Shown here: positions 2,904 to 19,090 of the stretch, piece by piece
Position numbering within the stretch: position 1 is the first letter of the stretch
Layout: each line of letters starts with the position of its first letter
DNA from: a virus
IMG/VR virus record: IMGVR_UViG_3300030389_002312
Coordinates: 1-21,323 of that record
DNA: 21,323 nucleotides
Direction: 5' to 3' (one strand)
The notes under the pieces: generated by a model
The model's input: only the letters and a program-made list of their open reading frames with translations
Database searches by the model: none
Told to the model about the DNA's origin: nothing
Position numbers and translations under genes: made by a program

Positions 2904-3653
2904 TTATATAGCCCACGCTGGTACGTCTAAATCAAAGTAACCAAAAGTACTTACTTGGTCGTAGCCAGTAGCTTCACCATTCCAAGTCTTAAAATTTTTT
3001 AATAATTCTTCTAACTCTTGCTTACCACGCTGTAAAATCTCTGGTGTTAGCTTATAACAAGTCACTACATACGGGCTTGTTTTTTCTAGTGCTATAATCC
3101 AATGCTCTTTGATCTCATGGCCTAAAGTTTTTTCTAAAAGCCTACAATATATATACCCTTGTATATGGTATTTTTGTCTATAGCTGTCGCTAGTAAAATC
3201 TCTTGGTGATCCCTTCTGGCAAGTTTTAAGATCAACGCAGTACTTAGAACTAAAACCATCAGCAAAGCCTCTAAACGGTACACCACCTATTGACCCTTTT
3301 AGCTCTTGCTCAAATGCCATACAGTCTTTAAGTATTTTGCTGGCTATTGGGTGAGCTTCTACAGCTGCTTTTATTTTCTGTATTTCGTTATGCTCTGATG
3401 GGCTTAACCAAATAGCTTTAGGGTTCGATTCTACTAATTCTTTATACGCTTTAGTACCTCTCCTTACTTCTAATACTTTATAATTTTTAGAAAATTCTTT
3501 TGGCTCTAATATGGCCGCATGAACTGCCGTACCAAAACGCATCGCTGGCGTTTCATGTTGTTCTCTATTTTTATATGCTATAAAGTGAGCTGGGCTATTA
3601 GCAAAATTTTTAATACTACTAAAACTTAAAGGATAATATTTAGATATGTTCAT
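2904..3653 (-). CDS. RecE-like PD-(D/E)XK exonuclease
   Basis: A 249-aa nuclease resembling the C-terminal domain of exodeoxyribonuclease VIII (RecE) and related PDDEXK phage enzymes. Recognisable parts are the opening LSFSSIKNFANSPAHF (9-24), the helix RFGTAVHAAILEP with H45 (39-51), FRGFADGF with D132, CVDLKT with D141 and K143, and a YHIQGYIYCRLLEK helix carrying Q165 and Y167. Such enzymes degrade one strand of duplex DNA to give single-stranded ends for annealing or recombination. The usual partner, a RecT/Erf-like annealing protein, is not recognisable; the possible ssDNA-binding protein two genes upstream may substitute. The start overlaps the DnaA-like gene by 14 bp. Its length is close to that of isolated RecE catalytic domains. 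Confidence 0.82.
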   Translation of the reverse strand: MNISKYYPLSFSSIKNFANSPAHFIAYKNREQHETPAMRFGTAVHAAILEPKEFSKNYKVLEVRRGTKAYKELVESNPKAIWLSPSEHNEIQKIKAAVEAHPIASKILKDCMAFEQELKGSIGGVPFRGFADGFSSKYCVDLKTCQKGSPRDFTSDSYRQKYHIQGYIYCRLLEKTLGHEIKEHWIIALEKTSPYVVTCYKLTPEILQRGKQELEELLKNFKTWNGEATGYDQVSTFGYFDLDVPAWAI

Positions 3654-3981
3654 TGGTCAAAATTTTCAAAGTGTTATAAAAATCGTTTCTTATCTGATAG
3701 TACCTAATCTTAAAACCTTCATCAGTTCTAAGTAGGTCGTCTACTTTTTTGACGTTGTGTATTACGCAACTGTGATCACGATGGAAGATATACCCTATAT
3801 CAGATAGACTTAGCGCAGTAGTATTGCGTAGCATATGCATAAGCATAGAGCGCATATCTGCATACGCTCTACGCCTATTATCTTCTTTAAGACTAGCCAA
3901 CGTAAAACCACACTTTTTAGCAGATAGCCTTGTACAGTCTTTAGCTATCATTAGTGAAGTATATACTTTATCTTGAATCAT
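3640..3981 (-). CDS. DnaA domain IV-like DNA-binding protein
   Basis: A 113-aa protein that looks like a stand-alone version of the C-terminal DNA-binding domain of the initiator DnaA. RRRAYADMRSMLMHMLRN (36-53) matches the long helix of domain IV. LSLSDIGYIF (57-66) and HRDHSCVIHNVKKV (67-80) match the helix-turn-helix and the signature seen in bacterial DnaA as RDHTTVxHAxxKI. There is no AAA+ ATPase domain. It could bind DnaA-box-like sites in the phage origin, compete with host DnaA, or act as a transcription factor. It sits in the replication operon between the possible ssDNA-binding protein (1-bp overlap) and the RecE-like nuclease. The domain match is good; the role is inferred. Confidence 0.75.
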   Translation of the reverse strand: MIQDKVYTSLMIAKDCTRLSAKKCGFTLASLKEDNRRRAYADMRSMLMHMLRNTTALSLSDIGYIFHRDHSCVIHNVKKVDDLLRTDEGFKIRYYQIRNDFYNTLKILTNEHI

Positions 3982-4430
3982 TAGAACTGATTAAAAGTAT
4001 CGTTACGAGTTTCAACTTGTGGCGCTTGCGCTTCGTTCTTAAAATAATCCAAACATTTATTAGCTGCATCTTGATACTCGGTAAATGATTTACCAGAGCC
4101 TAGCATAAAAGCAGCAATTTTTAGAGCGCTTTGGCGCTGGATATTTCTTCCTTTAGCGCTTTCGTTAGAATTTGTGTAGCTATTGTTGCTAGGTGTATAT
4201 CCAGTATCTTTTTTAACTCTTAGGCGTAAGCCGTCAGCAGTTTTTTTAACTTCGCTATACAGAACGTCATCGCCTACTTGATACGGTGCGCTTTCGCTTT
4301 TACCTAGCGCATACCCTTGTACGCCATCAGACATTTGTACGTTATGGATATGGAATACAGTTCCATCTGGTGCGCTCCATGTTTTTACGTTTTCGCGGAG
4401 CTGTTGAATTTGTGATTTTACTTCACTCAT
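3981..4430 (-). CDS. Possible ssDNA-binding replication protein
   Basis: A 149-aa protein without a firm family. Residues 15-74 are rich in predicted beta strands (VKTWSAPDGTVFHIHNVQM, GVQGYALGK, DDVLYSEVKKTADGLRLRVKK), compatible with an OB-like fold. A disordered Asn/Ser-rich linker follows (about 76-95). A C-terminal helical part (QRQSALKIAAFML 98-110, EYQDAANKCLDYF 118-130) ends in a short acidic/polar tail. The layout of fold, flexible linker and tail recalls phage single-strand-binding proteins. Its place at the head of the replication operon, before DnaA-like and RecE-like genes, fits. Its ATG overlaps the stop of the preceding 50-aa gene by 3 bp. The function is inferred and a different role in replication is possible. 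Confidence 0.5.
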   Translation of the reverse strand: MSEVKSQIQQLRENVKTWSAPDGTVFHIHNVQMSDGVQGYALGKSESAPYQVGDDVLYSEVKKTADGLRLRVKKDTGYTPSNNSYTNSNESAKGRNIQRQSALKIAAFMLGSGKSFTEYQDAANKCLDYFKNEAQAPQVETRNDTFNQF

Positions 4431-4579
4431 TTTATTTGTTTTTTAGTATAAGCTTTAAATAAATCTTGCTTAAACTGGTTTATAATTCTTTCTGTTTTCG
4501 CGTCTAGCGCTTGTTTAGCTATGTACGCACGCCATGACTCATAGTCTTTTATAGGCTCTTTAGGGTATACTGTTTTCAT
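4427..4579 (-). CDS. Unknown 50-aa protein, first gene of the replication operon
   Basis: A short ORF starting ATG AAA ACA GTA after an A/T-rich leader (TTTAAAA) and ending in a TGA that overlaps the ATG of the next gene. The product (MKTVYPKEPIKDYESWRAYI... to ...KAYTKKQIK) is charged and helical, with no membrane segment or motif that I recognise. The coupled stop/start and codon use like its neighbours support real translation. It is the first gene after the terminator-like structure at 4673-4698 and so the likely head of the early/replication transcript. Confidence 0.6.
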   Translation of the reverse strand: MKTVYPKEPIKDYESWRAYIAKQALDAKTERIINQFKQDLFKAYTKKQIK

Positions 4580-4672: not shown

Positions 4673-4698
4673 AAAAGGCCGACTCCGTAGAGCCAGCC
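4673..4698 (-). terminator. Rho-independent terminator with UACG tetraloop
   Basis: On the minus strand GGCTGGCTC (4698-4690), loop TACG, GAGTCGGCC (4685-4677), then TTTT. The stem has nine pairs, two of them G-U, closed by C-G around a UNCG-class tetraloop, which is unusually stable. The T run is short (TTTTACATT). It ends the lysis-gene transcript and the short RNA predicted from the promoter at 4750-4780. Confidence 0.75.
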
Positions 4699-4722
4699 TA
4701 ACACAATGAAAACATAAATCAA

Positions 4723-4743
4723 GGGCGTACAAACAAAACGCCC
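4723..4743 (-). other. Hairpin at the predicted RNA 5' end
   Basis: Perfect 6-bp GC-rich stem, GGGCGT and ACGCCC, around a 9-nt loop, followed by TTGATTTATG. It starts within a nucleotide or two of the predicted transcription start. It could be a 5' protective stem-loop or a weak first terminator. Confidence 0.55.
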
Positions 4744-4749
4744 AGTTTG

Positions 4750-4780
4750 CAAATATACTACTCTACTTTATTTTTTGCAA
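4750..4780 (-). promoter_or_regulatory. Bacteroidetes-type promoter before the short RNA
   Basis: A -7 box TATATTTG (4757-4750) matches TAnnTTTG exactly. A -33 TTG (4780-4778) lies 20 nt upstream, inside the last codons of the preceding gene. The -7 box abuts that gene's TAG stop. It has the same octamer as the promoter at 19113-19142. Expected transcription start is about 4743-4745. Confidence 0.6.
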
Positions 4781-4961
4781 GTAATAATTTAATATCTTGT
4801 ACAGCTTGTAAAAGTTGCTTTACATCTTCTTTATACTCTCGGCAGTCATTTTCAATATTTTTAACTCTTACGCTAAGTTTTGTATAGTCACCATGAAACT
4901 TAAACACAGTACCAATTAAGGCTATAGCCAGCATTATTAACTCGTATTGTGTGATGTCCAT
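4758..4961 (-). CDS. Small membrane/coiled-coil protein of the lysis block
   Basis: A 67-aa protein with one N-terminal membrane segment (about residues 7-22, YELIMLAIALIGTVFKF) followed by a charged heptad-like coiled coil (28-63, VRVKNIENDC...VKQLLQAVQDIKLLL). Its ATG overlaps the holin stop by 1 bp, placing it in the lysis cassette. Topology and position would suit an inner-membrane spanin-like or holin-modulating protein, but no spanin partner with a lipobox was found, so the role stays open. Confidence 0.65.
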   Translation of the reverse strand: MDITQYELIMLAIALIGTVFKFHGDYTKLSVRVKNIENDCREYKEDVKQLLQAVQDIKLLLAKNKVE

Positions 4962-18874: not shown

Positions 18875-19090
18875 CTATGCTTTCTCCCAAAGCTCTTGTT
18901 TGTACTCTGTGTGATTGTTTGCAAGCATATCCTCACACTCCTCTCTATCGTACTTAGTAACTTTCTTACCATTGATGTAAAAGTAATTTCTTGATTTGCG
19001 TCCTTCTTCATTCCATTGTTGTATATGAACTTGTTTGTATTCTGTACCGCTGTGGTGAGTGAAAGTTATTGTTTGCTTTGAGTAGTTCAT
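18875..19090 (-). CDS. Unknown 71-aa protein, first gene of the insert
   Basis: MNYSKQTITFTHHSGTEYKQVHIQQWNEEGRKSRNYFYINGKKV..., ending in a charged helix (DREECEDMLANNHTEYKQELWEKA). Three or four strands are followed by one helix, hydrophilic overall; no family or catalytic motif is recognised. It is the first gene after a consensus promoter with a palindrome at its start site, and carries the AAACAGAAAACATG start context. A separate frame on the same strand (18820-19011) is a shadow of this gene. Confidence 0.62.
   Translation of the reverse strand: MNYSKQTITFTHHSGTEYKQVHIQQWNEEGRKSRNYFYINGKKVTKYDREECEDMLANNHTEYKQELWEKA

Follow-up and report, generated by a model that had tools for sequence, protein, structure and literature searches.

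A candidate small-RNA gene between the lysis and replication genes of an uncultured virus with Bacteroidota-type promoter signals

Short, promptly terminated RNAs are known from lambdoid phages. The PR'-tR' transcript and the StxS small RNA (about 74 nt) arise next to the lysis region from a late phage promoter that has sigma-70 signals and an intrinsic terminator immediately behind it, and they depend on Hfq and RNase E (PMC7873438, PMC12197685). The OOP RNA of phage lambda (77 nt) is a short terminated RNA encoded near the replication genes, and it is a true antisense RNA of cII, transcribed from the opposite strand. Bacteroidota dominate many marine and gut communities, and we know of no Hfq or ProQ partner in these bacteria. 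A review of phage small RNAs holds entries for Proteobacteria, Staphylococcus and cyanobacterial phages and none for phages of Bacteroidota.

The window, by which we mean the whole stretch of DNA analysed (21,323 nt), is the 21.3-kb record of an uncultured virus with genes called on the minus strand. Along that strand, terminase and structural genes (21318 down to 5940) are followed by an amidase gene (5786-5367) and a holin gene (5374-4961) for lysis, a 67-aa gene that comes immediately after the holin gene (4758-4961), the candidate unit described here, and a 50-aa gene (4427-4579) that opens the replication operon. A 149-aa gene (3981-4430) comes next, and after it genes for a DnaA-type HTH protein, exonuclease VIII, a RusA-like resolvase and a replication initiation protein. 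The candidate unit is thus placed between the lysis genes and the replication genes; control of the early-late switch, which the first-pass annotation had suggested for this position, is speculation. The 113-aa protein of the replication cluster (3640-3981) has as its sole recognised domain the DnaA C-terminal DNA-binding domain (PF08299, E 7e-14). No Pfam or PHROG entry matches the 149-aa protein above cut-off; its low-confidence model (pLDDT 60) shows five strands and two helices, with weak fold matches (all E > 0.008) mostly to OB-fold proteins (S12, S1, RPA, Teb1), and it is perhaps a single-strand DNA-binding protein. Neither the whole window nor the 149-aa protein or the holin matched an isolated phage, leaving the window without a near isolated relative, and two protein alignments returned no prophage relatives in bacterial genomes. 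We infer a host of Bacteroidota type from the TAnnTTTG at -7 and the TTG near -33 (PMC9723704, PMC7366714).

Reading along the minus strand, the unit runs from TTG (the -33 element, 4778-4780) through 20 nt to TATATTTG (the -7 element, 4750-4757), CAAACT, a 5' hairpin (GGGCGT-9 nt-ACGCCC, 4723-4743) with a 6-bp stem GGGCGU/ACGCCC and a 9-nt loop, a 23-nt single-stranded linker that is a candidate pairing region (UUGAUUUAUGUUUUCAUUGUGUU, 4700-4722), and an intrinsic terminator hairpin of 10 bp with a UACG loop (AGGCUGGCUC-UACG-GAGUCGGCCU, 4676-4699) and a short U tail, UUUUAC. The promoter elements, the two hairpins and the UACG terminator had been singled out in the first-pass annotation and are present as it described them, and its statement that there is no protein gene in between holds for open reading frames of at least 50 aa. 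Folding of 83 nt gives -31.7 kcal/mol (z = -5.6, with 0 of 200 shuffles as good), and the 5' part folded without the terminator is moderately better than its shuffles (p = 0.015). Because the U-tract of the window is short, termination there may be leaky.

The arrangement TTG-N20-TATATTTG is a Bacteroidota-type -33/-7 promoter on the minus strand, which gives the putative small-RNA gene a host-type promoter of its own. The 67-aa gene contains this TTG in its final codons (LLAKNKVE), and the -7 box comes immediately after its stop codon. By the flavobacterial rule, in which the -7 box occupies -12 to -5 (PMC9723704), transcription is predicted to start at about 4746-4745, which shifts slightly the start near 4744 proposed earlier. 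The promoter match by itself is within chance, with 3 matches observed in the window against 2.2 expected for spacers of 19-22. All three TATATTTG boxes on the gene strand are intergenic, in a window of which just 2.8% is intergenic, and an exact TTG plus TAnnTTTG with a terminator within 110 nt occurred in none of 150 simulated windows. The other two boxes (19142-19113 and 18398-18391) lie shortly before late-gene starts at 19090 and 18385, and a strong terminator, GCGCCGTTTGGCGC followed by T10, is found near 18620-18597.

Scans with the holin, 67-aa and 149-aa proteins recovered the unit at the same gene boundary, within the same gene order, in five other viral contigs (L002/L052, L003/L053, L004/L056, L005/L054 and L006/L055). 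In these relatives the -7 box reads TATATTTG, TACCTTTG or TACCTTAC and begins 0-2 nt past the stop codon of the 67-aa gene; the -33 element is TTG in L002, L003 and L005, TTA in L004 and CTA in L006. The position of the promoter is therefore conserved and its sequence partly degenerate in L004 and L006, the L006 promoter being imperfect. A 10-bp terminator stem with a U tail is present in all six contigs, the tail being short in the window, L002 and L003, and three relatives have longer U-rich tails. The predicted RNAs of L002, L003, L005 and L006 fold likewise into a 5' hairpin, an open linker and a terminator. Across the three more distant contigs (L004, L005 and L006) the layout is retained with unrelated stems: L005 and L006 keep the order of elements, and the open linker of both contains UUUCAUUC, while L004 keeps promoter and terminator and has a doubtful 5' hairpin, whose beginning would lie ahead of the predicted transcription start and whose fold is no better than that of shuffles (p = 0.29). 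The 67-aa gene is also found without the unit, in fourteen further contigs where other genes or DNA follow it directly, and from this we take the unit to be a separate heritable module. In the other phages L079 (at 933) and L088 (at 4066) a plain terminator (AAAAGGGGCCGAAGCCCCTTTCTT) comes directly after the homologue of the 67-aa gene, with no promoter or 5' hairpin. The conserved LLAKNKVE ending was rejected as evidence for the promoter, as this protein end is also conserved in phages without the unit.

Base pairing within the unit is maintained through sequence change. In the three closest phages, 16 of 16 base pairs are intact despite three double compensatory and six one-sided changes; the 5' hairpin accounts for two double and two one-sided changes and the terminator stem for one double and four one-sided, with zero broken pairs in either. 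Slid controls are only 27-54% paired, and 16 of 500 shuffles reach the level of covariation observed in these three related sequences. Loss of the stems between conserved flanking genes, which had been named beforehand as evidence against the unit, is the opposite of what the relatives show. Between the window and L003, the linker is identical at 20 of 23 positions, 17 of them in one run, against identity at 25 of 53 four-fold codon sites in the 149-aa gene (P = 9e-5); the other 28 of these sites (53%) have diverged. Constraint is not unique to the linker, because the remaining intergenic sequence is likewise conserved (76 of 91 identical, window vs L003). Five further viral records contain the linker 17-mer, none with the surrounding unit.

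We propose, with moderate confidence, that a phage infecting Bacteroidota encodes in this unit a stand-alone small RNA, which would probably act through its linker. In this mechanism, the main sigma factor of the host would recognise the -33/-7 promoter where the 67-aa gene ends, and transcription would begin near 4745 and end at the UACG-loop terminator to yield an RNA of ~72-76 nt. The 5' hairpin, adjacent to the start, would probably guard this RNA against decay from its 5' end, and the terminator hairpin would protect the 3' end; production of a stable RNA is thus a prediction from sequence. The conserved open linker would most likely serve as a seed for pairing with mRNA of the phage or of the host; A-rich translation starts are plausible sites, since UUCAUU mirrors AAUGAA. 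Linker pairing, together with the identity of any target, is the most speculative part of the proposal.

An independent small-RNA gene is also the simplest account. Attenuation would need read-through or a switch. The best-surviving alternative is of that kind: a conditional leader of the PR'-tR' type, in which a constitutive promoter and a leaky terminator are combined with a phage or host factor that loads on the 5' hairpin or linker of the nascent RNA and allows polymerase to continue into the replication genes. The short RNA would then be a by-product, whether or not it also has a function. Promoter and downstream operon do share direction, 97 nt separate the terminator from the 50-aa gene that follows it, the U-tract of the window is short, the 5' hairpin could serve as a loading site, and by-product RNAs of such a kind exist, StxS among them (PMC7873438). 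We nevertheless regard this leader as doubtful. An exact promoter for the next gene, TTG-21-TAAGTTTG, sits between it and the terminator in L004, and a partial one (TTG-19-TCTAYTTG) is present behind the terminator in the window, L002 and L003; the U-rich tails of three relatives are longer; and no antiterminator gene was recognised among the proteins scanned. Nor was a mutually exclusive antiterminator fold found, the 5' hairpin being unchanged when the terminator arm was removed or forced to be unpaired. A leader peptide in the linker (MFSLC*) was rejected as not conserved, its sequence AUGUUUUCAUUGUGUUAG being present in the window and L002; the short frame of L003 stays open through the terminator and the units of L005 and L006 contain no AUG, such that no conserved short open reading frame ends at the terminator. 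The first-pass annotation had offered a small RNA or an attenuator. In relatives, the promoter and its position are conserved together with the layout of two hairpins and with compensatory pairing, which speaks for the former, and the attenuator or riboswitch reading is the weaker of the two because no alternative fold was found and an exact promoter follows the L004 terminator. An inverted repeat, TGTTAATA...TATTAACA (4654-4618, minus strand), flanks the partial promoter before the 50-aa gene, is conserved in the window, L002 and L003, and is a candidate operator of the replication operon.

It is unlikely that the locus makes no functional RNA, with the second hairpin simply terminating the late/lysis operon and with both the promoter-like box and the 5' hairpin incidental. 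A terminator is required at any operon end, the TTG sits in LLAKNKVE codons whose protein sequence is conserved even without the unit, and a promoter match of this quality can arise by chance. A terminator, however, leaves the covarying 5' hairpin and the frozen linker unexplained, the -7 box begins 0-2 nt after the stop codon in six of six contigs, and other contigs terminate the 67-aa gene without the unit.

Antisense action on the adjacent gene is improbable in our estimation. Here UGUUUUCAUU in the linker (4705-4714, minus strand) would pair with AAUGAAAACA across the start codon of the 50-aa gene (4580-4571) and stop its translation. The 10-nt complement is perfect and includes the AUG in the window, L002 and L003, and a 7-nt complement (UUCAUUC/GAAUGAA) is present in L005 and L006 at or just ahead of the next gene. 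Yet shuffled linkers do nearly as well (P = 0.02-0.09 within one lineage), L004 has no meaningful match, AUGAAA starts are frequent in AT-rich genomes, and the next gene ranks only 9 of 31 by duplex energy in the window, 2 of 22 in L002 and 2 of 9 in L003. The pairing to gene starts that had been suggested as a check is thus found at the next gene, but the 50-aa gene was rejected as the preferred target because other gene starts pair better, and no target stands out by duplex energy among phage gene starts. All surrounding genes lie on the same strand, which does not fit a cis-antisense RNA of the OOP type. Very unlikely, finally, is the broadest reading, an undescribed regulatory-RNA family of uncultured Bacteroidota phages in which an anti-start-codon linker between two protecting hairpins blocks many A-rich AAUGAA starts of host or phage.

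Importantly, a unit defined by promoter, terminator and covariation offers a concrete start for the culture-free discovery of small RNAs in Bacteroidota phages, and a stand-alone small RNA of this type would allow small-RNA action to be tested where no Hfq or ProQ is apparent. Rfam returned no credible family at gathering or relaxed thresholds, the best sub-threshold match being SprD (24.6 bits vs 100 needed). The kind of element, an intergenic phage small RNA, is known, and the family, judged on a partial library, appears to be undescribed. With the lambdoid PR'-tR' transcript and StxS the unit shares the immediate succession of phage promoter and intrinsic terminator, the predicted RNA size and the lysis-region neighbour, but its promoter is of Bacteroidota type, replication genes lie downstream, and no relation by sequence or Rfam is detectable. 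Its predicted product resembles OOP as a short terminated phage RNA near replication genes, whereas the unit is encoded on the same strand as the genes, with no opposing gene overlapping it. With the Bacteroidota small RNAs GibS of B. thetaiotaomicron and Rfp18 of F. psychrophilum it has in common a TAnnTTTG promoter, an intrinsic terminator, an intergenic position and a presumed independence of Hfq (PMC7366714, PMC9723704); those two RNAs are chromosomal, whereas the unit described here is carried by a phage.
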